Positions 6,871-22,511 of a stretch of 64,000 nucleotides of DNA are shown here, one piece after another. Source of the DNA: an uncultured Paracoccaceae bacterium (GTDB lineage Bacteria > Pseudomonadota > Alphaproteobacteria > Rhodobacterales > Rhodobacteraceae); assembly GCA_947502145.1 (NCBI GenBank), contig CANMYO010000001.1, positions 1,667,501 to 1,731,500 on the forward strand, in the 5' to 3' direction. Under the pieces are notes generated by a model. That model had not been told where the DNA came from and did not search any database. It saw only the letters and a list, made by a program, of their open reading frames with translations. Made by a program: the position numbers and the translations under genes. The stretch's first letter is position 1. Each line of letters starts with the position of its first letter.

Positions 6871-7034
6871 ATTCATGGGGAGGAAGAGCGCACCGGTCGG
6901 CCCGCAGGGGCGAATCCGGCAAAGTGAATACCCATAAATCGTTGACGCGGTGCAGGATCGACACCTGCTGACGTCAAGGAATCCTCAACAACAGAGCTGC
7001 TGAAAAAGCGCTGAAAATGTCAAAGGGAATGAGA

Positions 7035-8267
7035 ATGAAACAGAGTTTGAAAATGGCCCTGATGGCCACGAGCCTTGTGTTGGCCCCGGTGAGCGGTTTT
7101 GCCGATACCGCCGATGGTGAAGCGCTGAATGCCATGTCATGGGATGAGATCGTTGAATTGGCCCGCGGCGGCGAAGTGAACTGGTTCCTGTGGGGCGGAT
7201 CAGACAACATCAACCAGTATGTCACTGAATACATCGGTGGGCGGTTGATGGATGAATACGGGGTCACCCTGAACCGCGTTGGTCTGAGCGACACCGTGGA
7301 AGCGGTGAACATTGTCCTTGGCGAAAAGGAATCCGGGGTGATGGATGCGGGGTCCGTCGACATGATCTGGATCAACGGAGAGAACTTTCGCACCATGAAA
7401 CAGGGTGGGCTGGCCTATTGCGGCTATACAGATGTCTTGCCCAACAATGCGTTTGTGGATTGGGACAACCCGGCGATTGCCAATGACTTTGGAGTGCCGG
7501 TCGAAGGTTGTGAAGTGCCCTGGTCCAAGGCGCAGTTTGCCTTTGCCTATGATACCGCCCGCACCGAGGTGCCGCCAAAGTCGATCGGAGAGCTGATCAC
7601 CTGGGTCGAGGAAAACCCCGGCCGCTTTACCTATCCGGCGCCGCCAGACTTTAACGGGTCGGTCTTTGTGCGGCACGTATTCTACCACGCCGCGGGCGGG
7701 GTGGATTCGCTGTTGGGCGATTTTGATCAAGCCAAATATGACGAGGTGGCCGCCAAGACATGGGATATCCTGAACGCGATGGAGCCGCATTTGTGGCGCG
7801 AGGGTCAGACCTATCCGGCATCAATTTCCGCGATGGAGCAGCTGTTTGCCAATTCAGAGGTTGATCTGACATTCAATTATGAACCCGCTGGCGTTGGGCT
7901 GAACATCGAAAACGGGGTCTTCCCGCCAACCACGCAGGGCTATGGGCTGACCGACGGGACAATCGGAAACACGAACTACACGATCATCCCGTTCAATTCG
8001 CCCAACAAGGCCGCGGCGCTGGTGTTGCAGAACCTCCTGTTGTCCGGTGAGGCGCAGTACGAAAAGGCGCGTCCTGCTGTCTGGGGAGCCGCCCCGGCCA
8101 TCGAAGTGGCACGCACCAGCGACGCGGTGCAGGCCGATTTTGCTACCATCGTGGCACACCCCAATGTTGTGCCTGCCGCAGAGCTGGCCAAGGCGGCGCT
8201 GCCGGAATTGCAGGCGTCATGGATTTCAGCCATCGAAAAGGGCTGGCTTGAAAACGTCGGTCAGTAG
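7035..8267 (+). CDS. ABC transporter periplasmic substrate-binding protein (YnjB-like)
   Basis: The solute receptor of an importer encoded with two permeases and an ATPase. It is 410 residues from the ATG at 7035, chosen because AAAGGGA lies 6 bases upstream; two closer upstream ATGs have no such spacing. The signal peptide is MKQSLKMALMATSLVLAPVS with likely cleavage after GFA. The mature protein begins with VNWFLWGGSDNINQYV and has the family's DMIWINGENFRTMKQGG and TYPAPPDFNGSVFVRH segments, as in the YnjB/spermidine-type group-2 binding proteins. Its gene is first in the operon. A hairpin just after it probably protects its transcript, so the receptor is made in excess. The ligand is unknown; context suggests a nucleoside-like or sugar compound. 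Confidence 0.88.
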   Translation: MKQSLKMALMATSLVLAPVSGFADTADGEALNAMSWDEIVELARGGEVNWFLWGGSDNINQYVTEYIGGRLMDEYGVTLNRVGLSDTVEAVNIVLGEKESGVMDAGSVDMIWINGENFRTMKQGGLAYCGYTDVLPNNAFVDWDNPAIANDFGVPVEGCEVPWSKAQFAFAYDTARTEVPPKSIGELITWVEENPGRFTYPAPPDFNGSVFVRHVFYHAAGGVDSLLGDFDQAKYDEVAAKTWDILNAMEPHLWREGQTYPASISAMEQLFANSEVDLTFNYEPAGVGLNIENGVFPPTTQGYGLTDGTIGNTNYTIIPFNSPNKAAALVLQNLLLSGEAQYEKARPAVWGAAPAIEVARTSDAVQADFATIVAHPNVVPAAELAKAALPELQASWISAIEKGWLENVGQ

Positions 8268-8286
8268 GTCCCGGCCTTCTGACCCG

Positions 8287-8311
8287 CCCACGCCGCATTG
8301 CGCGGCGTGGG
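8287..8311 (+). terminator. Intercistronic hairpin after the binding-protein gene
   Basis: CCCACGCCGC, loop ATTGC, GCGGCGTGGG: a perfect 10-bp GC stem between the binding-protein and first permease genes. No T-tract follows. Such stems usually attenuate or stabilise the receptor mRNA rather than end the operon. Confidence 0.65.
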
Positions 8312-8352
8312 GCACCCTGTCCCTGTGAAATAATCCCGCGAAAGTCAGCCAA

Positions 8353-9210
8353 GTGTCGGACCGCACCAAGATTTTCCTGCTGCTGTTGCCCGCCATGTTC
8401 ATCATTGTCGTCCTGTTCTTTGGTGGGTTGGCAATTGGGCTGATGCGCAGTTTCAACTATATGCCGGTGATCGGGCTGACCGAGCCTGATCTGAGCGCTT
8501 ATGTCTCTGTTTTCACGGACCGCGAATTTTATCTGTCTTTCCTGCTGACGTTCCATATCGCGTTTACGTCGACGTTGATTTCGTCAGTGCTGGCGATTGG
8601 GGCGGCCTTGCTGTTGCGGCGCAGTTTTGTGGGCCGCGGCATCGTGAATTTCCTGTTTCAGCTGAACCTGACCGTGCCGCATCTGGTGGGCGCAATCGGG
8701 ATGCTTTACCTGTTTTCGCAATCCGGGACGTTTGCCCGGTTGGCCAATGAATTCGGGATGATTGAAAAAACCAGCGATTTTCCCGCGCTGGTGTTTGACC
8801 CGTATGCGATTGGCATCATCCTGCAATATGTCTGGAAAGAGATCCCATTTATCGGGGTGATCGTACTGGCCAATATGCAGTCGATTGGCGAGGATTACGA
8901 AAGCGTCGCCCGCTCGCTTGGGGCAAGCAAATGGCAGACGTTTCGGTTTGTGTTGTTGCCGCTGATCTTTCCCGGGGTGCTGTCGGCCAGCGTCATGGTG
9001 TTTGCCTTTACGTTTGGGGCCTATGAAATTCCGGCCATTCTGGGTGCGAATTTTCCCGCCGCGCTGCCGGTGCTGGCCTATCGCAAATATACCGATGTTG
9101 ACCTTGCCGCGCGGCCAGAGGCGATGGCGATGGCGATTGTGATCGCCTTGCTGAGCGCGGTGATGATCTATTTTTACGTGCGCTATTCGCGCCGCAGGAT
9201 CAGGGGTTGA
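8353..9210 (+). CDS. ABC transporter permease (first)
   Basis: A 285-residue inner-membrane permease of the group-2 (spermidine/thiamine-like) type with about six transmembrane helices. The cytoplasmic EAA loop is ESVARSLGASKWQTFRFVLLPL-like (about residues 180-200), which docks the ATPase. The start is a GTG at 8353 (VSDRTKIFLLLL). Three bases separate it from the second permease, which confirms operon structure. It forms the channel with the next gene. Confidence 0.88.
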   Translation: MSDRTKIFLLLLPAMFIIVVLFFGGLAIGLMRSFNYMPVIGLTEPDLSAYVSVFTDREFYLSFLLTFHIAFTSTLISSVLAIGAALLLRRSFVGRGIVNFLFQLNLTVPHLVGAIGMLYLFSQSGTFARLANEFGMIEKTSDFPALVFDPYAIGIILQYVWKEIPFIGVIVLANMQSIGEDYESVARSLGASKWQTFRFVLLPLIFPGVLSASVMVFAFTFGAYEIPAILGANFPAALPVLAYRKYTDVDLAARPEAMAMAIVIALLSAVMIYFYVRYSRRRIRG

Positions 9211-9213
9211 GCG

Positions 9214-10038
9214 ATGAGCACACGTGAGGGCCTTCCGATGCGCAGTTTCCGGGTTCTGACCGGTGCGGTCTTGATCACATGGCTTGTCCTGCCGTTGATC
9301 CCGCTGGCGATCTGGTCGTTTGCGCGGGGCTGGTTCTATCCGGATCTGCTGCCAAAGACTTGGACCTTGCGGGCCTGGGACTATGCGATGTCGGATACGG
9401 CGGGCGTGCTGGACAGCCTGTGGCTGACGATCTGGATTTCGGTGGCGGCGACGGTCCTGTCGATCCTTGTCGGGGTGCCCGCGGGCCGGGCGCTGGGCAT
9501 GTATAAGTTCAGGGGCAAGGAGATCGTCGAACTGATGATCCTTGCGCCGACAATCGTGCCGGGCATTGCGGTGGTGCTGGGCATCCATTCGGTCTTTATT
9601 TCGCTGGGCCTGAACAACACGGTGTCAGGGGTAATCCTTGTCCACCTGATCCCGACGCTGCCCTATATGGTTCTGGTGATGTCGGGGATATTCGCGAACT
9701 ATGATCCGGCATATGAGGCACAGGCCCGCAGCCTTGGGGCGTCACCGCTCAAGACCTTTTGGTACGTGACGTTGCCCGCGATCCGCCCGGGCATCATCGT
9801 TGGCGGGCTATTCGCTTTTCTGGTGTCGTGGAGCCAGTACATCCTGACCTTGCTGATCGGCGGCGGGCGGGTTGAGACGCTGCCGCTGCTCTTGTTCAAC
9901 TTTGCGACGGCCGGTCGCAATGACATCACCGGTGCCATTGGCATGATCTATATCCTGCCCGGCATTCTCATTCTGCTGCTGACGGCCAAACATCTGTCCG
10001 GGCGCAGCGGGGCCGTCGGAGGCTTTGGACAAATTTGA
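9214..10038 (+). CDS. ABC transporter permease (second)
   Basis: A 274-residue permease, partner of the preceding gene, with about six membrane helices. The EAA loop is YEAQARSLGASPLKTFWYVTLP, here paraphrased as the segment near residues 168-188. The start ATG at 9214 follows the previous stop by three bases; an internal ATG at 9238 is a less likely alternative. Its stop codon overlaps the TTG start of the ATPase gene. Confidence 0.88.
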   Translation: MSTREGLPMRSFRVLTGAVLITWLVLPLIPLAIWSFARGWFYPDLLPKTWTLRAWDYAMSDTAGVLDSLWLTIWISVAATVLSILVGVPAGRALGMYKFRGKEIVELMILAPTIVPGIAVVLGIHSVFISLGLNNTVSGVILVHLIPTLPYMVLVMSGIFANYDPAYEAQARSLGASPLKTFWYVTLPAIRPGIIVGGLFAFLVSWSQYILTLLIGGGRVETLPLLLFNFATAGRNDITGAIGMIYILPGILILLLTAKHLSGRSGAVGGFGQI

Positions 10039-11072
10039 CCCATGTTTCGATCAAAGAGCTGACCAAGGTCTATCCGGGTTCAAGGGTGCCATCGCTGGAC
10101 CGGCTGTCGCTGGAAATTCCCAGCGGTGAGCTGACCGCGCTGCTGGGGCCGTCGGGGTGTGGCAAGACCACCACGATGAAAATGATCGCGGGGCTTTTGG
10201 AGCCCACCTCGGGTGATGTGACATTTGACGGGCGATCCGTGCTGCGGGACAAGCCGGAAGACCGCGGCGTGGTGATGGTGTTTCAGAACTACCTGCTGTT
10301 TCCTTACATGAGCGTTGCGGACAATGTCGGGTTCGGACTGAAAATGCGCAAGATCGACCCTGCCGAAATCAAGCGGCGCGTGGGAGAGATGCTGGACCTG
10401 GTCAAGCTGCCGGATCTGGGCGACCGCAAGCCAAGTGCGCTGTCGGGCGGGCAACAGCAGCGGGTCGCGCTGGCGCGGGCGCTGATCGTACAACCCAATG
10501 TGCTGTTGCTGGATGAGCCGTTGTCAAACCTTGACGCGCACCTGCGGTTCGAGATGCGCGACCTGATCCGGTCGCTGCAACAGGAGATGGGGATCACCAC
10601 CATTTTCGTCACACATGATCAGGAAGAGGCCGTTGTGCTGGCGGACCGTGTCGCGCTGATCCTTGACGGGCAGATGAAGCAATATGACCGGGCCGATGTC
10701 TTTTACAAGCGTCCCGTCGATGAGGCGACCGCGCGGTTCTTTGGCGGGCACAATTTCATTCCCGGCACCTCGGACGGGGAGACGTTTGACTGCGCGTTGG
10801 GCCGTGTGGCGTTGCCCGAGGGTGCGGCATTGGGGCGCGGCAAGCTGACATTCCGGCCCGAAAACGTGCGCATTGGCGCAAGCACCAACGGCGAAAACAC
10901 TTTGCAGGCAACGATCGTCGACGTGATTTACCTTGGCACCCAGACCCGGCTGAAGCTGCGGGTGGGCGAGACCGAGGTCGAGGCGGTGGTGAATCCAAAC
11001 GAGATCGAGAGCTACCGCGCCGGTGACGAGCTGACGATCCATATGCCCAAATCAACGTTATGGGTGATCTGA
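10035..11072 (+). CDS. ABC transporter ATP-binding protein
   Basis: A 345-residue ATPase of the importer. Walker A is GPSGCGKTT, the Q-loop is VFQNYLLFPYM, the signature is LSGGQQQR, Walker B is VLLLDEPLSNLD, and the switch His is in FVTHDQEEA. The C-terminal 100 residues form a TOBE-type domain (LTFRPENVRIG), as in MalK/PotA-like proteins. It begins with TTG at 10035, overlapping the permease stop (TTGA); no better start was seen. Its stop overlaps the next ATG at 11072. Confidence 0.92.
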   Translation: MTHVSIKELTKVYPGSRVPSLDRLSLEIPSGELTALLGPSGCGKTTTMKMIAGLLEPTSGDVTFDGRSVLRDKPEDRGVVMVFQNYLLFPYMSVADNVGFGLKMRKIDPAEIKRRVGEMLDLVKLPDLGDRKPSALSGGQQQRVALARALIVQPNVLLLDEPLSNLDAHLRFEMRDLIRSLQQEMGITTIFVTHDQEEAVVLADRVALILDGQMKQYDRADVFYKRPVDEATARFFGGHNFIPGTSDGETFDCALGRVALPEGAALGRGKLTFRPENVRIGASTNGENTLQATIVDVIYLGTQTRLKLRVGETEVEAVVNPNEIESYRAGDELTIHMPKSTLWVI

Positions 11073-11833
11073 TGGCAGTGAATTTCCGCTCCATTTTCGA
11101 GGTGACCCGCGCCGAATGGCTGGCTGGGCTGGGATTGTCTGAGGCGGAGATTCCCGATGTTGTCATCATGGAGGGATCATGGTGGCGCGCGGAGCGGCAA
11201 AAGCTGCGGCTGGCGCAGCTGACAGAGGTGCGGGAGTTGGATTTTCCCGATATTTTCTGGGGTCGGCATGGTGACAAGAAGGTCGTGTTTTGCATGGCCT
11301 ATGGTGCCCCCCGCGCGGTCGAAGTGAGCCAGATGTTCGCGCAGCTGGGGTGCAAACTGGTGATCCAGATCGGCACTTGCGGTGGGTTGCAATCGCATCT
11401 GGCCCCCGGTGATCTGATCATACCGGACGTGATCCGCTGCGAGGACGGCGTGGCAGAGCATTACGTGCAGGGCGACACGGTCAACGCTGATCCGGTCTGG
11501 GTGGCCCGCGCCAAGGACGCGCTGGAGATGTTGAACCGCAGGGTGCATGTGGGGCCGCATGTGACGTTTTCATCGCTGTTTGCGGAAACGGTTGAGATGT
11601 ACGAAGGCTGGCACAGGGACGGGTTGCTGAGCGTCGAGATGGAAGCCGCCACAAGCATTGCCGCTGCCGCGAAATTCGGCGTGCCCGGTGTGGCAATGGT
11701 GGTGGTCTGGGACGAACTGACAGCCGGACGCCGCTTCATGGACCCGATGACACCGGACGCCCTGCGCGACCTTGAAACCAGCAACGATGCGGTCTTTGCC
11801 GCCGCCCTGTCCCTGACCGAGGATGTCACATGA
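11072..11833 (+). CDS. Nucleoside phosphorylase family protein (PNP/UDP type)
   Basis: A 253-residue member of the PNP_UDP_1 family, which cleaves nucleosides with phosphate to base and (deoxy)ribose 1-phosphate. Visible features are FCMAYGAPRAVEVSQMF, VIQIGTCGGLQSHLAPGDLI (the phosphate/sugar-binding GTCG segment), and LLSVEMEAATSIAAAA, whose EMEA signature contacts the ribose hydroxyls. A late Asp in VWDELTAG is near where purine phosphorylases hold the base. Start ATG 11072 overlaps the ATPase stop. Its place next to an importer and sugar-converting genes suggests it opens the imported substrate. Which base it accepts cannot be read from the sequence. Confidence 0.85.
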   Translation: MAVNFRSIFEVTRAEWLAGLGLSEAEIPDVVIMEGSWWRAERQKLRLAQLTEVRELDFPDIFWGRHGDKKVVFCMAYGAPRAVEVSQMFAQLGCKLVIQIGTCGGLQSHLAPGDLIIPDVIRCEDGVAEHYVQGDTVNADPVWVARAKDALEMLNRRVHVGPHVTFSSLFAETVEMYEGWHRDGLLSVEMEAATSIAAAAKFGVPGVAMVVVWDELTAGRRFMDPMTPDALRDLETSNDAVFAAALSLTEDVT

Positions 11834-12666
11834 AATACGGGATTCACGCCGGTCTGTGGCAGGCCAGATGGACGGATGAGCTGACGCCGATCCTGAAAAC
11901 GGTTGCGGACCTTGGCTTTGACGGTGTTGAGGTGTCTCTGCTGGGGATGAACGATGACAAGGCCGCAGCGCTGGGACAGGCGGTCCGGGATCACGGGCTG
12001 GAGGTCACCTGCTCGGACGGTTTGGCCCCGGACAAGGACATCACCGCAACCGATCCTGATATCCGGGCTGCGGGCGTTGCCTATCTGAAATGGGCAATTG
12101 AAACGACAGCCAAAATCGGATCGCGCGGTCTTGCGGGCGTTGTCTTTGCGCCCTGGGGGCAGTTTGACCCGCTGCACAAGGCGGACCGCGCGCAGCGGTC
12201 AGCGGACAGCCTTGGCAGACTGCATGACACGCTGGTGGATCATGACGTCACGCTGGGGATCGAGATGCTGAACCGGTTTGAAACTGATCTGACCAACACC
12301 GCGGCAGAGGCGGTGGCCATCGCGGTGGCGTCGGGGTCCGACCGGGTGGGGGTGCTGCTGGATACGTTCCACCTGAACATCGAGGAAAAGGACATTCGCG
12401 CCGCCATTGCATCGTCCAAAGGCAAGCTGGCGCATTTCCATGTGTCCGACAATGACCGGGGGGTGCCGGGATCGGGGCATGTGCCGTGGGACGAGGTGAA
12501 GGCGGGGCTCGCGGATGTGGGCTATGACGGCTGGATTGTCGCAGAGATGTTCGTGATGGCGGGCAACCCGGCCAGTGCGGATCTGAACATCTGGCGCGAC
12601 ATTGAGCCTGCGCCGACAGATGCCGCCAGACGGGCGCTGGCCTTTATGAAAAGGCATTTCGGATGA
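11830..12666 (+). CDS. Sugar isomerase/epimerase TIM barrel, ketose 3-epimerase-like
   Basis: A 278-residue xylose-isomerase-like TIM barrel. The segment LGIEMLNRFETDLTNT (near residues 140-155) closely matches the metal-binding Glu region of D-tagatose/D-psicose 3-epimerases. Further probable ligands are Asp and His in VLLDTFHLNIEE, His in LAHFHVSDNDRGVPGSGH, and the late Glu in WIVAEMF. These enzymes invert C3 of a free ketose using Mn2+ or Co2+. ATGA overlaps join it to the genes on both sides. In this operon it would supply the ketose isomer that the DhaKL kinase and aldolase accept. Hydroxypyruvate isomerase-like activity is an alternative. Confidence 0.8.
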   Translation: MKYGIHAGLWQARWTDELTPILKTVADLGFDGVEVSLLGMNDDKAAALGQAVRDHGLEVTCSDGLAPDKDITATDPDIRAAGVAYLKWAIETTAKIGSRGLAGVVFAPWGQFDPLHKADRAQRSADSLGRLHDTLVDHDVTLGIEMLNRFETDLTNTAAEAVAIAVASGSDRVGVLLDTFHLNIEEKDIRAAIASSKGKLAHFHVSDNDRGVPGSGHVPWDEVKAGLADVGYDGWIVAEMFVMAGNPASADLNIWRDIEPAPTDAARRALAFMKRHFG

Positions 12667-13184
12667 AGGACTTCCTTGCCTTGTGCGTCACGCGTTTTGC
12701 AACGCTTGAGCCTGCGTTGAATGCGCTGGATGCGGCCACGGGCGACGGGGATCACGGGGCCACGATCCTGAAGGGATTGAAGGCCGCGGCAGCCGCGGAC
12801 GACGCCCCCGAAAAGGCGTTTCGCAAGGCAGCGGGCGGGGCCTCGGGGTCGTTGTTCGCGCAGGTGATTTCCGCGTTGGGCAAGGTCAGCGAAGGGGCGC
12901 AAATGGATGACGCACTGGCAGAGGCGGCGCGGCGGATCGCGATGCTGGGGCAGGCAGAGCCCGGCGACAAGACGATGCTGGATGCGCTGATCCCTGCCGC
13001 CCGGGCGCAGACCCCGGCAGAGGCCGCCGCCGCTGCCGCAAAGGGGCGGGACGCAACCCGCGAAATGGCCGCCAGGCGCGGGCGCGCACGCTATGTCGAA
13101 GGGGCCGGTGTGGGGCATTTGGATGCGGGGGCGACCTCGGTCGCGGAGCTGCTGGCGATTTTCGCGGCATGGAGGGATGGATGA
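12663..13184 (+). CDS. DhaL-type kinase subunit (ATP-binding)
   Basis: A 173-residue DAK2/DhaL domain that binds ATP-Mg for phosphorylation of a ketose held by DhaK. It has ATGDGDHGATIL (Mg-binding Asp cluster near residues 26-34), GGASGSLF, GDKTMLDALIPA, and ARRGRARYVEGAGVGHLDAG near the C-terminus. In single-chain DHA kinases this domain is fused to DhaK; here the order is dhaL then dhaK as separate coupled genes. No PTS-type DhaM is nearby, which favours ATP as donor. Confidence 0.88.
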   Translation: MKDFLALCVTRFATLEPALNALDAATGDGDHGATILKGLKAAAAADDAPEKAFRKAAGGASGSLFAQVISALGKVSEGAQMDDALAEAARRIAMLGQAEPGDKTMLDALIPAARAQTPAEAAAAAAKGRDATREMAARRGRARYVEGAGVGHLDAGATSVAELLAIFAAWRDG

Positions 13185-14197
13185 AAAAGCTGTTCAATTC
13201 CAAGGAGAAGATGCCCGATGACATGATCGACGGGTTCATCGCGGCCTATCCGGGGCTGGTGTGTCGTGGTGCAAATCCACGTGTCGTGCGGCGTCGGTCA
13301 CTGCGCACGGATGATGGCAAGGTTGCGCTGTTGATCGGCAATGGCAGCGGTCATGAACCCATCGCGATGGGGTTCGTCGGCGAGGGCTTGCTGGATGCCA
13401 ATGTGGTGGGGGACGTTTTTGCAGCGCCGTCGCCGGATGCCATTCTTGACGGCATCACGGAGGTCTGCGGCAGCGCGGGTGCGGTGCTGCTGATCTCGCG
13501 GCACGAAGGTGATGTGATCAACGGCAATGCCGCAGCGCTGATGGCGCAGGATGACGGGCACAATGTGCAGCCACTGCTGATGTATGACGACATATCGTCG
13601 GCGCCCAAAGGGCAGGAGGCTGACCGGCGCGGCGCGGCGGGCACAATGTTCATTTACAAGATTTTGGGGGCAGCGGCCGAACAGGGCATGCAGATTGATG
13701 ATCTGATGCGGTTGGGGGAAGCGGTACGGGCCGCGACACGCACCCTTGGTGCGGCGGTCAAGCCCGGCGTATCACCTTTGACCGGCGCGCCGATGTTCAC
13801 CCTGCCGGAGGACGAAATCTTTATCGGCATGGGGGTGCATGGTGAGCCGGGGGTCGGGCGGCGCAAGGTGGGTCCTGTGCATGCGCTTGTCGGTTACATG
13901 CTGGACGAATTGCTGCGCGACCGGCCCATTGCGGCAGGCACACCGACGGTGGTTCTTGTCAATGGCGCCGGTGGCACGACAATGATGGAACTGCTCACCG
14001 TCTATGGTGAGGTTGCAACGCAGCTTGCGGCGCATGGCATCACGCCGATTGCGCCGATGATCGGTTCTTATTCGACAACACAGGAGATGGGGGGATTTTC
14101 GATTTCCCTGTTTACGCCAACACCGCAGATGCTGGACCTTTGGCGCGCGCCGCATAAGGCCCCCCAATTCCCGCAGATCAGCGCGCAGGGAGGATAG
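13181..14197 (+). CDS. DhaK-type kinase subunit (ketose-binding)
   Basis: A 338-residue DAK1 domain that binds a ketone sugar covalently and passes it to the DhaL ATP site. GNGSGHEP (residues 53-60) lies in the substrate pocket. IGMGVHGEPG places the hemiaminal-forming His at residue 220. ATG 13181 overlaps the dhaL stop (ATGA). Known family substrates include dihydroxyacetone and D- or L-erythrulose; here the flanking ketose epimerase, isomerase and LacD-like aldolase suggest a 1-phosphorylated ketopentose or ketohexose derivative. That substrate is inference. Confidence 0.87.
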   Translation: MKKLFNSKEKMPDDMIDGFIAAYPGLVCRGANPRVVRRRSLRTDDGKVALLIGNGSGHEPIAMGFVGEGLLDANVVGDVFAAPSPDAILDGITEVCGSAGAVLLISRHEGDVINGNAAALMAQDDGHNVQPLLMYDDISSAPKGQEADRRGAAGTMFIYKILGAAAEQGMQIDDLMRLGEAVRAATRTLGAAVKPGVSPLTGAPMFTLPEDEIFIGMGVHGEPGVGRRKVGPVHALVGYMLDELLRDRPIAAGTPTVVLVNGAGGTTMMELLTVYGEVATQLAAHGITPIAPMIGSYSTTQEMGGFSISLFTPTPQMLDLWRAPHKAPQFPQISAQGG

Positions 14198-14199
14198 GC

Positions 14200-15096: not shown

Positions 15097-15105
15097 GAGA
15101 ACGGC

Positions 15106-15870: not shown

Positions 15871-15880
15871 GGGTAGTATC

Positions 15881-17302
15881 ATGAAAATCGGACTGATCCG
15901 GGCATCATTGCCAAGCTATTTCCCACAGAAACATGGCGTGTGGGCGGCCGCGGAAAAGGCGGTGCTTGCCCTGTGCGAGGCAGAGGGCATCGCGACCTTT
16001 CTGCCGCAGACGGTGCCGATGAACGCAGTCGAAACACAGGCTGTGCTGGACCGGTGCAGTGCAGAAGGTGTTGATTTCGTTTTGCTTTTGCATGGCGGAT
16101 TTACGATGGGGGATGTGGCGCGCACGGTTGCGGCCTCTGCCTTTCGTTGCGGAGTCTGGTCGGTGCCCGAACCGGTGCGCAGTGGAGATGTGCAGCTGAA
16201 CAATTTTGTGTCGCTGAACATGTCGCTGTCGATTGCCCGGCAGGTCCGCGACCTGTCACGCACTCCGATGCAATGGTATCACGGCGCGCCGGATTCAACG
16301 GCGCTGCAAAAGCGGCTGCGTCATACGCTGCGTGCGATCAAGGCTGCCACAACGTTGGAGGGTGCGCGGATCGGGGTCATTGGCGGGCTGGCGATGACGT
16401 TTTACAACATGGAGGTGCGCAGCGCAGACCTGCGCCGCCGGCTAGGCGTTGAGGTCGCCCACCATGACATGCACGAGCTGACTAGCCGCATGGCCGCGAT
16501 GGATGCCGGACGGGTCACGGCAGAGGTCACAGCGATGGCGGCAGCGGCAGAGGTTGTAGATGTGAGCGCCGCGCAGATGGCCCTGACCGCACAGGCCGCG
16601 CTGGCCCTGTCGGACATGGCGGCAGCGGGCGGATATGCCGCCCTCGCGGTCAGTGACTGGCCGGCGCTGCAAAATGATCCCGGTATGCATCCGGGGGCTG
16701 CGTTTTCCTGGCTGGAGGAAACAAAGGGATTGCCTGTCGCCTCTGAAGGGGACGTGCTGGGGGCCGTGAACCAGTTGGTCGCCAAATCAGTCACCGGGCG
16801 GGTTGGCTATCTGCTGGATATGACGGAGCCCGATCTTGATGCGGGTCAGTTGTTGATGTGGCATGGCGGCGGCGGGCCGCTTTATCTGGCGGACGGGAAT
16901 GGCGCGCGCTGGGTCAATCATCCGATGATCGGGCGCGGCACCGCAGAGGGTCCGGTCTATGGCGCGATCAGTGATCTGGTCTTTCAGGACGGTCCGGTCA
17001 GCGTGTTTCGCATTGCCCGCAACGCCGGGGCCTTTTTCGGCATGACGGCCAACATCGCAGGGCGCGACCCCAGCGGGTTCACGGGCTGTCGCGGCTGGTT
17101 GCAGGGGTTTGACATGGACGGGCAGGCGGCCAGTCTTGAGGATGTCGTCGCCACGGTCATGGCGCATGGGCTTGAACATCACTTTGTGCTGGTGCCGGGG
17201 GATGTTTCGCCGGTTCTGACAGAATTTGCGTCATGGACCGGCATGGACATTCTGGGGCGTGTCGCGATGAAGGATCACCTTGACCGCCGCGATTTCACCT
17301 AG
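15881..17302 (+). CDS. L-fucose/L-arabinose isomerase-like protein
   Basis: A 473-residue protein of the fucose/arabinose isomerase fold, starting at ATG 15881 (MKIGLIRASLPSYFPQKHG). The N-terminal part has the Rossmann-like LLHGGFTMGD and the conserved sugar-binding WSVPEPVRSGDVQLNNFVSLN. The C-terminal catalytic part includes YLLDMTEPDLDAGQLLMWHGGGGPLYLAD, with the His-Gly segment typical of the family. Such enzymes interconvert aldoses and ketoses with Mn2+. It is the last gene of the operon and its stop lies 8 bp inside the end of the convergent nucleoside hydrolase gene. The substrate is unknown. Confidence 0.75.
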   Translation: MKIGLIRASLPSYFPQKHGVWAAAEKAVLALCEAEGIATFLPQTVPMNAVETQAVLDRCSAEGVDFVLLLHGGFTMGDVARTVAASAFRCGVWSVPEPVRSGDVQLNNFVSLNMSLSIARQVRDLSRTPMQWYHGAPDSTALQKRLRHTLRAIKAATTLEGARIGVIGGLAMTFYNMEVRSADLRRRLGVEVAHHDMHELTSRMAAMDAGRVTAEVTAMAAAAEVVDVSAAQMALTAQAALALSDMAAAGGYAALAVSDWPALQNDPGMHPGAAFSWLEETKGLPVASEGDVLGAVNQLVAKSVTGRVGYLLDMTEPDLDAGQLLMWHGGGGPLYLADGNGARWVNHPMIGRGTAEGPVYGAISDLVFQDGPVSVFRIARNAGAFFGMTANIAGRDPSGFTGCRGWLQGFDMDGQAASLEDVVATVMAHGLEHHFVLVPGDVSPVLTEFASWTGMDILGRVAMKDHLDRRDFT

Positions 17303-18377
17303 CAGCAGCGGCGGCGAGTTTGTCATAGAAATCAAGGAAGATGGCGTCGCGCTGGACATCGTGCGCCTCGCGCATGGGGTGGCGGGTCTTGTCGGTCTGC
17401 CAGTAGAGATCAACATCCAGCACCGGCGAGGTGGTCAGCATGGTGGGCACCCAGTCGGGATTGATCAACCAGGCGATATTGATGATGTCCCAGATGACCC
17501 AGGTGCGCCGTTCACGATCCGAGATCGCAAACATGTCGTGTAGCGGATTGTGGGTAAACAGGTGGTAGAGGTAATCGCCGATGGCGCCTTGGCCTTTGAC
17601 AAAGGCGGCCATTTCGGGGCGTGAAATCTTGAGCTGGGCGCCAACATGATAGCCTGGAAGATAGACATGCGGCACGCCGCTATCAAAGATGATCCGCGCG
17701 GCATGCACATCCTGCACAAGGTTCAGTGACGGGCGATTGCAATGCGGCGCGTCAGACGGGTAGGCCGACGTCCAGATCACCACGATCCGGTCACGGATTT
17801 CGGGAGCTTTCAGCAGGGCTGCCGCGATATTGGTGACGCAGCCCATGGCCGCGATATATAGCGGTGCGTCCCCTTGCGTGGCAAGGTGGATGATCGTGTC
17901 GACCGCTTCGGAATCGACAATGTCATCAGGGGTTTGCATGTAACGTTGCGCACCGCGAAAGACCTTGCCATCGGACGCCATGCCAAGTTTGTCGTAGATG
18001 GTGCAGATTTCGGCATAGCTGCGCTCCATCCCTTCGGGGGGCATCACAAAGGACAGATCAGCCGCGCGGCGGCCCTGGGCGTGCAGTCGGTCGATCCAGC
18101 CCTGAAACCCGCCGACCAGGTGTTCCTTGCGGGTGGTGCCCGCCTCGATCGCGCGTTCGGCGGCCAAAAGCTCTGGCTGGTGGTGAGCAAAGGAATAGGG
18201 CACGGCGGTGATCGCTTCGACCTGCATGTGTTCGGGCGACAGAAGTGCCCATGCGATTGCGAACTGATCGTCGATTTCATTCGCCGCGTCGGTGTCAATC
18301 AAAAGCCGCACCGGCCCGCCATTGGGCAGGGCAAGGCGCTGGGTCATCAGGTCGGCCGGCAGCGGGGTAAACGTCAT
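17295..18377 (-). CDS. Nucleoside hydrolase (IUNH family)
   Basis: A 360-residue inosine/uridine-preferring nucleoside hydrolase-type enzyme. The Ca2+ site is LLIDTDAANEIDDQFAIAWAL (paraphrased; DTD at residues about 28-30 and DD about 36-37). Further features are YIAAMGCVTNIAAAL and a late WVIWDIINIAW Asp where the family has a metal or base contact. It hydrolyses N-ribosides to base and free sugar. It is the last gene of the GntR operon and faces the isomerase gene tail to tail. Together with the phosphorylase in the opposite operon it makes two independent glycosidic-bond-cleaving enzymes in one locus. Confidence 0.88.
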   Translation of the reverse strand: MTFTPLPADLMTQRLALPNGGPVRLLIDTDAANEIDDQFAIAWALLSPEHMQVEAITAVPYSFAHHQPELLAAERAIEAGTTRKEHLVGGFQGWIDRLHAQGRRAADLSFVMPPEGMERSYAEICTIYDKLGMASDGKVFRGAQRYMQTPDDIVDSEAVDTIIHLATQGDAPLYIAAMGCVTNIAAALLKAPEIRDRIVVIWTSAYPSDAPHCNRPSLNLVQDVHAARIIFDSGVPHVYLPGYHVGAQLKISRPEMAAFVKGQGAIGDYLYHLFTHNPLHDMFAISDRERRTWVIWDIINIAWLINPDWVPTMLTTSPVLDVDLYWQTDKTRHPMREAHDVQRDAIFLDFYDKLAAAAAR

Positions 18378-18389
18378 GGAAGGTCCCTT

Positions 18390-19145
18390 TCATACATGGC
18401 GGGGCGACCGGCCGGATTGCGAAAGATTGAAGCTGACGGAGCCGGGCCGGTAGACGTCTTCGTGAAAGACCATGCGCCCGGCGTCATCAAAGGCAGAGCA
18501 GGCCTGTTTCAGCAGCGGCTGGCCGACCGATATTTCAAATGTGTCGGCCATGGCGGTATCGGCAAGGATCGGGCTGATATCTTCGCAGGCTGCCGACCAC
18601 TCAAGACCAAAGCGGGCGCTGAGAATGCGCAGGATGGATTGCCCCGGCCCACGTTCGGGAAAGTCGACTGGCCGCGCGTCTTTGAGCAGGTCGCGCGGTG
18701 CGTAGGTCATCACCAACATACTGGGTTTTTCGTCCACGAGGCGCAGGCGCACCACACGGCTGACCGCGATCCCGCGCAGTTCCGCAGGCAGGGCAGCGAC
18801 CTCAGCCGCGCCAGCCTCAAAGTGATCAAGCGAGATAAAGCGCGATGACGGGTCATGACCAGAGCGCAGCATCGCGTCGGTAAAGGAGGTCAGACAGGTG
18901 TCAGAGGCGGGCGACAGGGTCAGCACGCGATAGCCGCTGCCCTGTTTGCTTTCGACGTAGCCATCCTGCACCAGCATATCGAGCGCGCGGCGAATGGTAA
19001 CGCGGCTGACCGCGAAATGCGTCGCCAGTTCGCTTTCCGTGGGCATGCGCCCCCCGACCGGATAGCGCCCGGATTTCAACCGTTGCAGGATCACCCGATA
19101 GGCGTGTTCGTATTTTGGCTGTGTTTCAGTCTGCATTCTGGCCAT
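18390..19145 (-). CDS. GntR family regulator, HutC/UTRA subfamily
   Basis: A roughly 250-residue regulator with an N-terminal winged helix (YRVILQRLKSG, GRMPTESELATHFAVSRVTI, DGYVESKQGSGYRV) and a C-terminal UTRA effector domain (residues about 95-245). The start is uncertain: GTG 19157, ATG 19145 and ATG 19136 all overlap the end of the ligase gene. It is embedded in the operon, not alone, so it should be autoregulated. The TTGTA-N2-TACAA palindromes at 6859 and 22416 fit the consensus of this subfamily, so it probably represses both operons and the MFS gene until a pathway intermediate binds the UTRA domain. Confidence 0.9.
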   Translation of the reverse strand: MARMQTETQPKYEHAYRVILQRLKSGRYPVGGRMPTESELATHFAVSRVTIRRALDMLVQDGYVESKQGSGYRVLTLSPASDTCLTSFTDAMLRSGHDPSSRFISLDHFEAGAAEVAALPAELRGIAVSRVVRLRLVDEKPSMLVMTYAPRDLLKDARPVDFPERGPGQSILRILSARFGLEWSAACEDISPILADTAMADTFEISVGQPLLKQACSAFDDAGRMVFHEDVYRPGSVSFNLSQSGRSPRHV

Positions 19146-20805
19146 CTTGTCGTTCACTCATTTTCTGTTCGGCTTCGCGCAGAGCGCGGCGGTTGATCTT
19201 GCCTGATGAGGTCATGTCGAAGCGGTCGACATAGGTAAATTCACGCGGCGCCTTGTACCCGGCAAGGCGGGTTTTCACATGGTCGCGCAGGGCGTTGGAC
19301 AGGGCATCATCTGCGGTGACACCGGCGGTCAGTTTGACCACCGCCTTGACGATGGCGCCGCGGTCTGCGTCCGGTTTTCCGATCACTGCGACCTCGGCAA
19401 CGCTGGGATGGGACAACAGGCAGTCTTCGACTTCGGCGGGGCCAATGCGAAAGCCGGAGGATTTGATCAAGTCATCCGCGCGGCCCTTGTACCAGAAGTA
19501 TCCATCCGCATCGCGCACCGCGAGGTCATGGGTACGCAGGTAGGAGCCAAGGTGCATTTCGGCTGTTTTCTCAGGGTTATGGAGATAGCCCAGAAACCGG
19601 GTCGGTGAGGTCGCCAGTGTCACGATTTCACCCGGTTCGCCGTCCGCGACGGCGGCGCCGTCAGCGTCCACAAGCTGCACCGTATGACCGGGATAGGCGC
19701 GCCCCATGGAGCCGGGCCGTCGGGGATAGAGTGCGGCGCAATTGCCGATCAGATGGTTCACCTCGGTCATGCCGTAAAATTCGTTGCAGACGACGCCGAG
19801 TTTGGTCTCGGCCCAGTTGAGGGTTTCCGCGGCGAGCGCCTCGCCCCCGGTGCAGATCACCCTGAGCGCCAGATCGTAGTCATTGCGGGGCGCAGGGGTT
19901 TGCGCGAGACGTTTGATCGCGGTCGGGGCGAGAAAGGTATGTGTGACCTTGTGGCGCGACATGAAGGCATAGGCCTGCGCGGCCGAGAACCGGTCGAGCG
20001 AGGTCGCGATCGGGCGGCCGGCCATCCAGGCGGGGAACAGCATGTCGAGCAGCCCGCCGACCCAGGCCCAGTCCGACGGCGACCAAAAGACCGCATCGGG
20101 GTCATTCATCGACAGATCAAAGAACAGATTGATCGAGGGTGTATAGGCGGCCAGGATCCGATGCGCATGCAAGATTCCTTTGGGTTTCCCCGTCGACCCT
20201 GAGGTATACATCAGTAGCGCCGGGTCATCGGCGCGGCCATAATCCGGGGCGAAACCGGGGGCATCATTGGTCATTGCCCGGCCAAGGTCGATATCACCGG
20301 CACCGGGATCACGGCACAGGATATGCTTAAGGTGCGGAAAATCCTGCGCCGCCGTTTTGCGCATCGGACCCCAGGCCCCATTGTCAGTCAGAATAACCGA
20401 GAGGGCACAGTCATTTAACGCATGGCGCACTGTATCGGGACCGTAGAGCTGTGACAATGTGACTGCCACTCCGCCAAGTTTGCAGACCGCCATATGGGCA
20501 ATCGCCGTATCGGGGTGCTGGCCATTGTGCAGACCGATCAGACTGCCCCGCCCATAACCAAGATCGCGCAGGGTTGCGGCAAGATTTCTGGCCGCATGAT
20601 CCACCTGCGCAAAGGTCTGGACATGGGTCTGTCCGGCGGCGTCCTGAAAGATCATTGCCGGCTTGTCGCGGCTGGCTTTGCCCAGATGCCGCCCCAGCGT
20701 CATGTGGAAGATGTTGGCATCATCCGGCCAGGTCACGGCATAGCCCGCACCCGCGGGACGCAAGTTCAGCCAGGGCAGCAGGTGATCTGGAATGGATGTG
20801 GTCAT
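19126..20805 (-). CDS. AMP-dependent acyl-CoA synthetase
   Basis: A 559-residue ANL-superfamily ligase resembling acetyl-/medium-chain acyl-CoA synthetases. The P-loop TSGSTGKPKG is at residues 201-210, FYGMTEVN is the A5 motif, and the adenylation Lys is K536 in SSGKINRRALR. It should convert an organic acid, ATP and CoA to acyl-CoA, AMP and PPi. Its 5' end overlaps the DUF35 gene by 4 bp (ATGA) and its 3' end overlaps gntR, so it is fully within the operon. Its acid is presumably the substrate activated for the thiolase-fold/DUF35 pair. Confidence 0.9.
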   Translation of the reverse strand: MTTSIPDHLLPWLNLRPAGAGYAVTWPDDANIFHMTLGRHLGKASRDKPAMIFQDAAGQTHVQTFAQVDHAARNLAATLRDLGYGRGSLIGLHNGQHPDTAIAHMAVCKLGGVAVTLSQLYGPDTVRHALNDCALSVILTDNGAWGPMRKTAAQDFPHLKHILCRDPGAGDIDLGRAMTNDAPGFAPDYGRADDPALLMYTSGSTGKPKGILHAHRILAAYTPSINLFFDLSMNDPDAVFWSPSDWAWVGGLLDMLFPAWMAGRPIATSLDRFSAAQAYAFMSRHKVTHTFLAPTAIKRLAQTPAPRNDYDLALRVICTGGEALAAETLNWAETKLGVVCNEFYGMTEVNHLIGNCAALYPRRPGSMGRAYPGHTVQLVDADGAAVADGEPGEIVTLATSPTRFLGYLHNPEKTAEMHLGSYLRTHDLAVRDADGYFWYKGRADDLIKSSGFRIGPAEVEDCLLSHPSVAEVAVIGKPDADRGAIVKAVVKLTAGVTADDALSNALRDHVKTRLAGYKAPREFTYVDRFDMTSSGKINRRALREAEQKMSERQDGQNAD

Positions 20806-21182
20806 CGCGCATTCCTCGCGCCCCTGGCCCCAAGGCAGAGCCCTGGCTGGCCGCCGGTCGATGCGATGATATGGCCGCCGCTGGCGTCCGCCGCGACATC
20901 GACCAACTTCACTGTGCTTTGGGTTGTCGCACCATCAAAGCTGACCAGCGCGAAATCGCCGTCCTGCCCGGTTGTGCGCAGGGTGATGGTTGCGGTGCCT
21001 GGCAGGGTGACCCATTCCCCCGCATCGCTGCCGCAGGCGCAGGTTCTGACCGGCGGAAAGCTGGTTGCGGCACAGGCCGCACAGCGCCGCGCGATGGCCT
21101 GACCCTGCAAGAGGCCGGTCACAAAAGGGCCCAACCAACCGGGGTTGAGCGCATAGTCCAATGTGATCTGGTGGCGGATCAT
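20802..21182 (-). CDS. DUF35 Zn-ribbon/OB-fold protein (ChsH2-like partner)
   Basis: A 126-residue protein with an N-terminal helix, a rubredoxin-like Zn ribbon (RRCAACAATSFPPVRTCACGS; Cys pairs C-x2-C and C-x-C) and an OB fold (WVTLPGTATITLRTT, FALVSFDGA). DUF35 proteins associate with thiolase-superfamily enzymes; with Ltp2-type partners the complex acts as a steroid side-chain retro-aldolase. It overlaps both neighbours by 4 bp, which supports a 1:1 complex with the thiolase-fold protein encoded just upstream. Confidence 0.88.
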   Translation of the reverse strand: MIRHQITLDYALNPGWLGPFVTGLLQGQAIARRCAACAATSFPPVRTCACGSDAGEWVTLPGTATITLRTTGQDGDFALVSFDGATTQSTVKLVDVAADASGGHIIASTGGQPGLCLGARGARNAR

Positions 21183-22360
21183 CCGGCTGTCCCCCCTTGC
21201 GCGAGGATCGTGACCGCCGCCGTGGTACAGACCCCGCCATGGGTGTCGGCAACCGCGTATCGGGGCAGAATGCGCGGTTGCAGTGCCGCGTGATAGCGCC
21301 CTTCAAGGATCAGGGCGCAGGTCGCCGTCTGTGCAACGCCTATGGCACCCACCGGCGCGCCTTGTCCCATCAACCCGCCAGACAGGTTGATCGGACAGCG
21401 GCCTTCAGGGGCAAAAACGCCCCGCGAAAGATCGTTTGAAAGATCATCGGACAAACCGAGGGCGCTGATGGCCTGAAGCTGGGCCCCGGCATAGGCGTCG
21501 TAGATCTCTGCCAGGTCGATGTCTTGTGGCGAAATCTCTGCCGCGGCGCAGGCGCGCGCCATGGCCATTGTCTTGGCGGTAAAGTCACCGGGGTCGGCGC
21601 GGTGGCTGAGATGCATATGATCGCTGGCCGCGCCCGCGCCGATGATCTGTGGCGCCGCATTTCGGTTGGCGGGGACACGGGCGGGGGCCGAGAGGATCAG
21701 GGCGGCGGCCCCGTCAGACAGCGGCGAGCAATGCAGGCGGTGATAGGGGCTGGCGATCACCGGGCTTTGGCCAATGGCGGCGGCGCTGTCGCTGCGGGGC
21801 AAATGGGCGTTCGGATTGCCACCTGCATTGCCCCGGTTCTGGATCGTGACCGCAGCAAGGTCGTCCATTGTCGTGCCGTGCCGCTTGGCAAAGGCCTGAT
21901 ATGACAGGGCATAAAGCGCGGTCGCAGTCAGCCCGGTCATCCCGTCGGTCCAGCCATCAAAGGAAAAGCCGTAAAGGTCGCGGATTGCGTCACCCGAAAG
22001 GCTGGACGCAGAGGGATCAACGCCAAGCACCACCGCATGGCGCGCCGCGCCGGATTGTACCGCCCGCAGGGCTGCATGGACCGCAAGTTGCCCCGATGCG
22101 CCGCCACCTTCACACCGGGTGGCGGCCACGCCGACGAGGCCCAGTTCACTGGCAAGGATCGAGGCGGGATTAAGTTGAAAATGGAAGAAATCGCTTTCGG
22201 AGGCGACAAAGAGCGCATCAATGTCGCCGGCGGTCAGCCCTGATTGTGCAAGTGCTGCATCAAATGCTGACTTTGCCCAGTCGCGGAAACCGGAGCCATC
22301 TTTGCGGCGGTCAAATCGGGTGAGCGCGGCCCCGGTCACTGTGACATTCCTGATTGGCAT
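21179..22360 (-). CDS. Thiolase-superfamily protein lacking catalytic Cys and His (possible CoA-dependent retro-aldolase)
   Basis: A 393-residue thiolase-fold protein of the SCP2/lipid-transfer type, starting at ATG 22360 (an in-frame ATG at 22402 would add 14 residues). In active thiolases the nucleophile sits in a CASG motif; here the aligned residues 87-90 are GASG. The second motif, normally GHPxGATG, is GQGAPVGAIG, with Ala335 replacing His. The overall fold signatures remain (GVDPSASS, LSDGAAALIL, NLSGGLMGQG). Ltp2-type aldolases that pair with DUF35 proteins also lack these residues. Its DUF35 partner overlaps it by 4 bp. I infer retro-aldol cleavage of a beta-hydroxyacyl-CoA rather than thiolysis. 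Confidence 0.82.
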   Translation of the reverse strand: MPIRNVTVTGAALTRFDRRKDGSGFRDWAKSAFDAALAQSGLTAGDIDALFVASESDFFHFQLNPASILASELGLVGVAATRCEGGGASGQLAVHAALRAVQSGAARHAVVLGVDPSASSLSGDAIRDLYGFSFDGWTDGMTGLTATALYALSYQAFAKRHGTTMDDLAAVTIQNRGNAGGNPNAHLPRSDSAAAIGQSPVIASPYHRLHCSPLSDGAAALILSAPARVPANRNAAPQIIGAGAASDHMHLSHRADPGDFTAKTMAMARACAAAEISPQDIDLAEIYDAYAGAQLQAISALGLSDDLSNDLSRGVFAPEGRCPINLSGGLMGQGAPVGAIGVAQTATCALILEGRYHAALQPRILPRYAVADTHGGVCTTAAVTILAQGGTAG

Positions 22361-22427: not shown

Positions 22428-22511
22428 GTTAATATTGGCCGTCGCTTTCCGGGTCCTAGCGCCCAGACGCGCGTGACATGTGACCAGCAGCCAACGGGCA
22501 AGGATTTTGAG

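Follow-up and report, generated by a model that had tools for sequence, protein, structure and literature searches.

Two neighbouring operons that make up a 16-kb region on a 64,000-nucleotide stretch of DNA (the window: contig CANMYO010000001.1, positions 1,667,501 to 1,731,500, from assembly GCA_947502145.1 of an uncultured Paracoccaceae bacterium, with a genome of 4.03 Mb in 22 contigs) are, to judge from a shared operator and from their joint recurrence in other genomes, a single regulon controlled by a GntR-type regulator that presumably binds at both promoters. This regulon probably serves to import and degrade pentofuranosides in which the pentose is closed to phosphorylation at C5, most likely by a substituent X there, and arsenosugars are the best-fitting compounds of this kind. 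A preliminary description of the locus had put forward a route from glycoside cleavage through an isomerase, a 3-epimerase, a DhaKL-type kinase and a LacD-type aldolase to dihydroxyacetone phosphate (DHAP), and this core is well supported by the protein families, the conserved residues and the gene neighbourhoods. As the two operons would form one regulon, the pathway probably continues via an aldehyde dehydrogenase, a coenzyme A (CoA) ligase and a thiolase-fold/DUF35 pair.

Gene content, operator and recurrence of the two operons

The plus-strand operon (7017-17302) encodes a binding protein, two permeases and an ATPase of an ATP-binding cassette (ABC) importer, a PNP_UDP_1 protein, an epimerase, DhaL, DhaK, a LacD-like protein, a short-chain dehydrogenase/reductase (SDR) and an isomerase, and the minus-strand operon (22360-17295) encodes a thiolase-like protein, a DUF35/zf-ChsH2 protein, an AMP-forming CoA ligase, a GntR/UTRA regulator and a protein of nucleoside-hydrolase fold (NucH). 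Families in the window were called by Pfam and NCBIfam profile scans. All those named in the preliminary description (importer, phosphorylase, hydrolase, isomerase, epimerase, kinase, aldolase and SDR) were found where it had placed them, the isomerase by structure prediction.

The palindrome TTGTANNTACAA precedes each operon (Table 1). It has just two copies in the whole genome, both at these promoters, and none in 100 shuffles of the window; a reversed control pattern has four copies in the genome. Because the control pattern is no rarer than the real one, the evidence from the operator lies in its position and not in its number.

A scan of genome contigs based on the isomerase alignment and on two exact peptide patterns returned 66 loci, which are a lower bound and not phylogenetically independent: near-duplicate genomes are included (e.g. 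L070/L086 and L046/L048), six loci lie on the same contigs as the six other cluster-bearing genomes of our family survey, and L041 and L042, which belong to a second system, are still counted, L041 also among the 52 loci of at least 19 kb. By tblastn, relatives were found for the isomerase (66, the query), DhaK (58), the epimerase and DhaL (57 each), NucH (55), the thiolase-like protein (54), the ligase and DUF35 protein (53 each) and LacD and GntR (52 each), and, among accessory proteins, for aldehyde dehydrogenase (25), the PNP-like protein (18), the major facilitator superfamily (MFS) transporter of the window type (18), a second MFS group (MFS2, 17), the SDR (15) and a sulfatase (5). All ten core genes stand together in 43 of the 52 long loci, so that the set is more than a chance gathering; the nine that fall short are L032, L037, L038, L039, L041, L047, L049, L050 and L087. 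The preliminary description had also allowed that the thiolase operon might be a separate entity, as would follow if neighbourhoods usually kept the two operons apart. Our neighbourhood comparison found them usually together: genes for the thiolase-like and LacD-like proteins co-occur in 44 of the 52 long loci (thiolase-like alone in 4, LacD alone in 1, neither in 3), and the operator is shared.

Two gene orders recur, the labels for which, like the tblastn identity thresholds and the choice of open reading frames (ORFs), were set within this analysis. Type A resembles the window, and type B runs thiolase-DUF35-ligase-epimerase-DhaL-DhaK-LacD-GntR-isomerase-ABC-NucH. From the thiolase-like gene through NucH, all genes point the same way in 24 of 29 type B loci; of the other five, four have the thiolase and ligase genes on the opposite strand and one is incomplete. 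The relaxed site TTGTN4ACAA is found close to a cluster gene's start (at most 350 bp before or 150 bp inside it) in 21 of the 27 type A loci and 25 of the 29 of type B, and the 66 loci contain 26 strict and 70 relaxed sites versus 0.55 and 11.6 in shuffles that preserve base composition only. DhaK and LacD are encoded at another place in the genomes of L041, L043, L047 and L049. Four second loci, L148, L149, L150 and L151, belong to the genomes of L043, L049, L041 and L082, respectively; the strict operator is present in the first three and a relaxed one in L151, and of the partner loci L043 and L049 have a relaxed site and L041 has none, an operator-type site being found in both halves of the split systems L043/L148 and L049/L149. 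In Tateyamaria (L110:3026-5997) a third operator precedes the genes for a second binding protein, which belongs to the same Pfam family as the first, and for a metallophosphoesterase; besides L110, the genes at three other operator sites read in related genomes looked unrelated by eye. On the other side of the L110 operator lies the gene for a large RTX-repeat protein.

By record name, the loci belong mostly to Rhodobacteraceae and Rhizobiales, with SAR116 and Granulosicoccaceae in addition, and Devosia rhodophyticola and D. algicola are among the carriers, as are the cultured strains Tateyamaria pelophila DSM 17270 and Marinovum algicola FF3. Of 248 genomes sampled from the family, 7 (the window's own among them) have a LacD-like gene, and the other six all have the whole gene set; within the genus it is present in one of six genomes, the window's own, and missing from the other five. 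Among 385 genomes of the class, strong isomerase matches occur in the window's genome only (two, at 833 and 719 bits), and four others have matches at 85-141 bits. With so few carriers in family, genus and class, the cluster is patchy.

Enzymes of the front end, the sugar module and the CoA module

The glycoside-cleaving front end varies between loci (NucH, PNP-like, GH51-type, sulfatase and phosphoesterase genes) and the sugar and CoA modules are constant. NucH passes the IU_nuc_hydro cut-off, and its Asp cluster (D.D.ANEIDDQ) and WD pair are conserved. Compared with three canonical nucleoside hydrolases (L112, L118 and L121, of a set taken from the same and related genomes that missed the relatives L122 and L124), it has SLN for AEFN and WD for HD, and SLNLVQD occupies 55 of 55 rows where the three canonical relatives read AEFNIYVD. 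The Glu of AEFN in nucleoside hydrolases contacts the 5'-OH of the ribose, and the HD pair has been assigned a role as well. The PNP-like protein has Gln at the position of the Arg in the DeoD motif R-V-G-S-C-G, both in the window and throughout the 17 PNP-like proteins listed. In DeoD this Arg is a phosphate ligand, and its replacement suggests that the product is the free sugar rather than the 1-phosphate, which fits what the next enzyme would need. In L148, a GH51-type, alpha-L-arabinofuranosidase-like gene lies between the permease and ATPase genes (PF06964, 56.8 bits); its best solved relative is 3s2c (252.9 bits), and the nearest solved relatives are alpha-L-arabinofuranosidases. An ORF at the equivalent spot of L150 resembles it, as judged by eye. 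A sulfatase-family gene with a CMPAR motif adjoins the thiolase-like gene in L046, L048 (a record named Flavobacteriales), L059 and L079 (SAR116 type), and one is also found near the cluster in L080, the position being at the thiolase or the NucH end. Genes for GMC-type oxidoreductases occur near the cluster in L037, L070, L085, L086 (by clustering) and L150 and may serve to oxidise an alcohol by-product.

Since NucH is divergent, the PNP-like protein carries Gln and a variant operon contains the GH51-type gene, O-furanosides appear at least as likely as N-nucleosides as substrates. Of the nucleoside-like substrate that the preliminary description had in mind, glycoside cleavage has stood, and nucleoside is probably too restrictive a term.

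The isomerase has no Pfam match, no real match in a sequence search against solved structures, and a sole NCBIfam match, to the sulfoquinovose isomerase SftI (NF048012), at 108.3 bits where the cut-off is 700. By contrast, an AlphaFold2 model built from a 32-sequence alignment (mean predicted local distance difference test, pLDDT, 93.4) gave ten best Foldseek matches that are all L-arabinose isomerases (probability 1.00, template-modelling (TM) scores 0.78-0.81), with L-fucose isomerases next. The fold is settled through the predicted model only. Candidate acidic and His metal-ligand motifs are conserved in the alignment (SEGD in 65/65 rows, WHGG and EHHF in 63/65 each), and the protein is predicted to be an aldose-ketose isomerase with the arabinose isomerase fold.

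Conserved candidate metal-ligand motifs are likewise present in the 3-epimerase, which scores 225.6 bits against the D-psicose 3-epimerase equivalog NF051856 (cut-off 300, not reached). DhaL has an invariant GDGDHG (58 rows), and DhaK, which can be aligned with E. coli DhaK structures, has GVHGEPG in 59/59 rows, the His of which we take to be the covalent binder of the ketone. In the LacD-like aldolase, aligned with structures of tagatose-bisphosphate aldolase (LacD), the Lys of LK.E.P (LKVE.P) is conserved and is presumably the Schiff-base former; the protein passes the broad subfamily NF009498 only, reaching 169.5 bits of the 432 required for the equivalog TIGR01232, and weakly matches YihT-type sulfofructose-phosphate aldolases. 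A single open frame spans DhaK and LacD in L078 (7240-9162, 640 residues) and in L151 (5689-7677, 662 residues), a possible kinase-aldolase fusion of the kind expected where two enzymes catalyse successive steps; the L078 frame may be an artefact, given that several other L078 genes are in pieces and sequence errors are possible. Close relatives of the SDR are confined to type A loci (15 of the 66).

In the CoA module, the thiolase-like protein differs from the thiolase 7yvy, which with 6et9 is its nearest solved structure, in having EGGGASG for EAACASG, YDAY for HDAF and GAP for GHP. The column of the nucleophilic Cys is Gly in 54/54 rows, and the Tyr of YD.[FY] is present in 54/54. As the parts of PMC12329534 drawn on here describe, the steroid aldolases Ltp2 and Sal use the Tyr of YDHF or YDCY as catalytic base, both work with a DUF35 partner, and in Sal a Gly replaces the nucleophilic Cys of thiolases; the EGGG and YDAY changes correspond to these marks. 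The locus thus resembles the pairs Ltp2-ChsH2(DUF35) and Sal-Shy(DUF35) in the thiolase fold, the Tyr of YD.[YF], the Cys-to-Gly replacement as in Sal, and an adjacent DUF35 gene, the product of which keeps the zinc-ribbon pairs C..C and C.C in 52/52 rows; unlike those systems, it has a sugar context and no MaoC hydratase among its core genes. We predict from these replacements that the thiolase-like protein acts in the manner of a retro-aldolase and not of a thiolase, and claim no membership of the Ltp2/Sal family for it. Its model has a pLDDT of 85.3, confidence being low at residues 56-61 and 330-334. An aldehyde dehydrogenase is encoded in 25 of the 66 loci, in 23 of them within the run itself, where it separates LacD from GntR (or the isomerase) or GntR from the ligase, a position that suggests the order aldehyde, acid, acyl-CoA.

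Proposed route, substrate and competing explanations

We infer each reaction, the order of the oxidation, CoA-ligation and cleavage steps, and the substrate from the sequences, as follows. The furanoside would be imported by the ABC transporter, and a free 5-X-pentose would be released by the NucH-fold protein or the PNP-like nucleosidase, or in a variant by the GH51-type furanosidase. The arabinose-isomerase-fold enzyme would convert this aldose to a ketose, which would be epimerised at C3, phosphorylated at C1 by DhaKL and split by the LacD-like enzyme in a Schiff-base aldol cleavage to DHAP and X-CH2-CHO. Oxidation by an aldehyde dehydrogenase, the gene for which lies in the cluster in the 25 loci above and presumably elsewhere in the rest, would yield X-CH2-COOH, which would be activated to X-CH2-CO-SCoA; the thiolase-fold/DUF35 pair would release acetyl-CoA and X by a retro-aldol-type cleavage, and an MFS carrier would export X. 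That the pentose cannot be phosphorylated at C5 is suggested by the loss from NucH of the Glu that is the 5'-OH ligand in nucleoside hydrolases, together with the wiring of the route; phosphorylation at C1, aldol cleavage to DHAP and processing of the fragment left over are the logic described for sugars without a free terminal hydroxyl (PMC10986504 and PMC6079011, in part). If a retro-aldolase acts on X-CH2-CO-SCoA, X must be an oxygen-bearing electrophile. Were this right in outline, 5-substituted pentoses would be degraded from start to end by a novel combination of enzyme families, among them a thiolase-fold protein recruited to an acyl-CoA that derives from the sugar. Two other kinds of substrate were considered and rejected: apiose, since apulose lacks an epimerisable C3 and would leave the 3-epimerase idle, and plain hexofuranoses or 6-deoxyhexoses, the aldehydes from which would go to glycerate or lactate and make the CoA module needless.

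The best-fitting X is dimethylarsinoyl. Arsenosugars are 5-deoxy-5-dimethylarsinoyl-beta-ribofuranosides, one of which (AsSug328) is termed universal in seaweeds (PMC6656958, in part), and in their synthesis a radical S-adenosylmethionine enzyme adenosylates arsenic (PMC12159101, in part). Human urine after arsenosugar ingestion is reported to contain dimethylarsinic acid and thio forms of dimethylarsenoethanol and dimethylarsenoacetic acid (PMC6656958, in part), and we relate the arsenosugar metabolism of algae, animals and bacteria to the cluster by inference. In this version of the route, removal of the aglycone (glycerol, its sulfate- or phosphate-bearing variants, or adenine) would give 5-deoxy-5-dimethylarsinoyl-ribose, which would pass through a xylulose 1-phosphate form to DHAP and dimethylarsinoylacetaldehyde. 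The latter would be oxidised and CoA-activated, As(V)-O would stand in for a beta-hydroxyl or carbonyl group, and the end product, dimethylarsinic acid, would be exported by an ArsK-related or other MFS carrier. Arsenosugars also occur in sulfate and phosphate forms, which would explain the sulfatase and phosphoesterase genes.

Evidence independent of this chemical reasoning comes from the MFS2 genes, one of which lies directly upstream of the thiolase-like gene on the same strand in 17 of 29 type B loci. Relatives of the window's own MFS protein, which is of another group, occupy the place that it has in the window in 14 of the 27 type A loci and in 3 of the 29 of type B. The arsenic efflux-carrier family ArsK (NF033733) is the best NCBIfam family for 5/5 MFS2-group proteins scanned (53.3-210.4 bits), the 210-bit protein (L040) being encoded about 2.5 kb from the thiolase-like gene and outside the 17, of which nine were scored for relatedness to ArsK. 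An ArsK-family search of 12 cluster genomes gave matches at E <= 1e-10 in nine, in 7/7 type B genomes with a match at the cluster edge by coordinates (70-104 bits), as compared with one of 14 control genomes. We tentatively entertain, as something short of an even chance, a dedicated bacterial arsenosugar pathway to acetyl-CoA and dimethylarsinic acid in which the thiolase-fold/DUF35 lyase splits the As-C bond; if true, these would be genes that take seaweed arsenosugars to dimethylarsinic acid by a new As-C bond cleavage.

A number of observations weigh against the proposed route. None of the core sugar or CoA enzymes reaches an NCBIfam equivalog cut-off for a characterised function. The second catalytic acid (Tyr344 of Ltp2, Cys304 of Sal) was not found in the alignment of the thiolase-like protein, the Cys304 position being Ala, Ser or Pro, and its sequence and fold are nearer to acetoacetyl-CoA thiolases (archaeal ones, TM up to 0.90) than to Ltp2/Sal (0.80-0.82). 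The aldehyde dehydrogenase is absent from 41 of the 66 loci, some of them incomplete, and from the window's cluster. Of 11 genomes checked on account of a locus without LacD, 5 gave no LacD-like gene anywhere (those of L032, L039, L050, L042 and L065; G269, G270, G271, G273 and G279); most of the five are records of metagenome-assembled genomes, and G273 is a case of another system. Whole-genome searches of 12 relatives gave 2-4 operator sites each and 0-5 of the reversed control. As to arsenic in particular, no MFS2 protein reaches the ArsK cut-off of 400 bits, the window's own MFS protein belongs to another group not related to ArsK, no other arsenic gene was noticed in the clusters (no systematic scan was made), and gut bacteria merely thiolated an arsenosugar and formed no dimethylarsinic acid (PMC6656958, in part).

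The chief competing explanation is an ordinary pentose, freed from a furanoside and cleaved by way of a ketose 1-phosphate to DHAP and glycolaldehyde, with the ligase and the thiolase-fold/DUF35 pair degrading a carboxylic beta-hydroxy aglycone. We consider it unlikely: hydrolase types vary between loci and the ligase and thiolase-fold genes are constant, so the latter suit the constant, sugar-derived part better; such sugars are usually phosphorylated at C5; and NucH has lost its presumed 5'-OH ligand. It would nevertheless accommodate the likeness of the GH51-type protein to alpha-L-arabinofuranosidases, the separation of the ligase/thiolase half from the DhaK/LacD half in the genomes of L043, L047 and L049, and the use of beta-hydroxyacyl-CoA by enzymes of the Ltp2/Sal kind (PMC12329534, in part). 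The same separation, and the arrangement of the window's operons as separate transcription units on opposite strands, would also be accounted for if two unrelated catabolic operons were neighbours by chance. This we hold to be extremely improbable in view of their joint occurrence in 44/52 long loci, the co-directional order of 24/29 type B loci and an operator that is shared and is retained by both halves in two split genomes.

Less probable than an ordinary pentose is a variant of the DHAP shunt for imported 5'-deoxyadenosine or methylthioadenosine (X = H or SCH3). The DHAP shunt (Pfs/MtnP, MtnK, MtnA, Ald2) and 5-deoxyribose salvage (DrdK, DrdI, DrdA) are alike in logic and products, since there too a 5-deoxypentose is released as the starting sugar, as predicted here for the 5-X-pentose, and a ketose 1-phosphate is cleaved to DHAP and an aldehyde (PMC10986504 and PMC6079011, in part); the PNP-like gene of 18/66 loci would fit as well. 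In those pathways, by contrast, phosphorylation of the aldose comes before isomerisation, which takes place on the 1-phosphate, the aldolase is of class II, and the passages cited describe no 3-epimerase, CoA ligase or thiolase-fold lyase (PMC10986504 and PMC6079011). The cluster falls outside their families, with a Dak1/Dak2 kinase, an isomerase of the arabinose isomerase fold that would act on the free aldose, a 3-epimerase, a class I aldolase of the LacD/DeoC type and a predicted CoA-dependent module. A retro-aldolase would be needless for acetate or methylthioacetate, and the sulfatase and GH51-type genes would be left unexplained. A sulfonate or phosphonate as X, in a pentose analogue of sulfoglycolysis with its isomerase, 1-kinase and YihT/LacD-type aldolase, has still less in its favour and is quite improbable: the lone NCBIfam match of the isomerase to SftI and the weak YihT-type matches of the aldolase point that way, yet these scores are far under the cut-offs (108.3 of 700 bits for SftI) and no sulfonate or phosphonate lyase is among the recurrent neighbours. 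We know of no 5-sulfo-pentofuranoside that is a common metabolite.

The proposed 5-X-pentose pathway also shares with fucose and rhamnose catabolism and with sulfoglycolysis an isomerase of the arabinose/fucose-isomerase fold or SftI-like type, 1-phosphorylation and DHAP as product, and differs in its kinase and aldolase families, 3-epimerase, furanosidase-type front ends and CoA module. The oxidative deoxyribose/deoxyribonate pathways resemble it in that one of their forms also includes a thiolase and CoA ligation. There, C3 of 2-deoxyribonate is oxidised before a thiolase or a beta-keto acid cleavage enzyme (BKACE) performs the cleavage, and the passages of PMC6365646 describe no isomerase, DhaKL or LacD. 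Among the best-ranked open-licence literature matches we found no description of the pathway, nothing relevant to the enzyme combination and no bacterial genes for arsenosugar degradation, in agreement with the preliminary description, the author of which knew of no described pathway with exactly this set.

Coordinates and further observations

Start codons of the thiolase-like gene (22360) and the isomerase gene (15881) were fixed during the motif and alignment check. The binding protein is one that we take to be of the YnjB type.

Table 1. Features of the regulon and its edge in the window, with predicted functions and their basis
Feature	Positions	Strand	Basis or remark
Operator TTGTATATACAA	6859-6870		Upstream of the import/sugar operon
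Importer, four genes together	7017-11072	+	
Periplasmic binding protein, PRK11622 subfamily	7017-8267	+	NF008633, 462.7 bits (cut-off 203)
ABC permease 1	8353-9210	+	BPD_transp_1
ABC permease 2	9214-10038	+	BPD_transp_1
ABC ATPase with TOBE domain	10035-11072	+	Pfam
PNP_UDP_1 protein, probably purine-nucleosidase-like	11060-11833	+	IQIGTCG in place of the DeoD Arg motif
Ketose 3-epimerase, xylose-isomerase-like, D-tagatose/D-psicose 3-epimerase family	11830-12666	+	Profile matches, conserved candidate metal-ligand motifs
DhaL-type ATP subunit, ketose 1-kinase	12663-13184	+	Dak2
DhaK-type ketose-binding subunit	13169-14197	+	Dak1, 319 bits
LacD-like class I aldolase (LacD/DeoC)	14200-15096	+	NF009498, 232.6 bits (cut-off 184)
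SDR oxidoreductase	15106-15870	+	Pfam
Aldose-ketose isomerase, L-arabinose/L-fucose isomerase fold	15881-17302	+	Predicted structure, Foldseek
Divergent nucleoside-hydrolase-fold glycosidase (NucH)	17295-18377	-	IU_nuc_hydro, 71.6 bits (cut-off 34.2)
GntR/UTRA regulator, presumed binder of both operators	18390-19157	-	Pfam; operators only at this regulon
AMP-forming acyl-CoA ligase	19126-20805	-	AMP-binding, 215.7 bits
DUF35/zf-ChsH2 partner, four conserved Cys	20802-21182	-	20.1 bits, just under the cut-off of 23.2
Thiolase-fold C-C (or C-X) lyase, without the thiolase nucleophile	21179-22360	-	Alignments, predicted model
Operator TTGTAGATACAA	22416-22427		Between the thiolase-like and MFS genes
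MFS transporter, divergent from the thiolase-like gene	22473-23645	+	NCBIfam scan, tblastn

Beyond the MFS gene, the window encodes a BKACE protein (24286-25446) that scores 462.2 bits for 3-oxoadipate:acetyl-CoA acetyltransferase (cut-off 350). We did not retain it as a cluster member, since it has no counterpart among the recurrent neighbours listed and lies outside the operator-bounded region. An ORF at 26951-27532, 3-4 kb past the MFS gene, matches a transposase helix-turn-helix and an NAD-binding domain and is a possible remnant of an insertion element. The G+C content of the window is 0.62 at 22-24 kb and falls to 0.53 at 28-30 kb.

The genome encodes a second isomerase paralogue, 53% identical to the first, in a cluster at L158:7576-19893 (about 790-802 kb on contig G000:C1). 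With it are genes for an SDR, an old-yellow-enzyme flavoprotein and, as judged by eye, an RbsABC-like sugar transporter, two conserved proteins (TIM-barrel and Tm-1-like) and a flavin monooxygenase-like protein. L042 and the first locus of the L041 genome fall in this different system: L041 has relatives of all the genes of the L158 cluster and L042 of part of them, with CoA ligase and thiolase genes nearby. The L158 cluster looks like another undescribed pathway.

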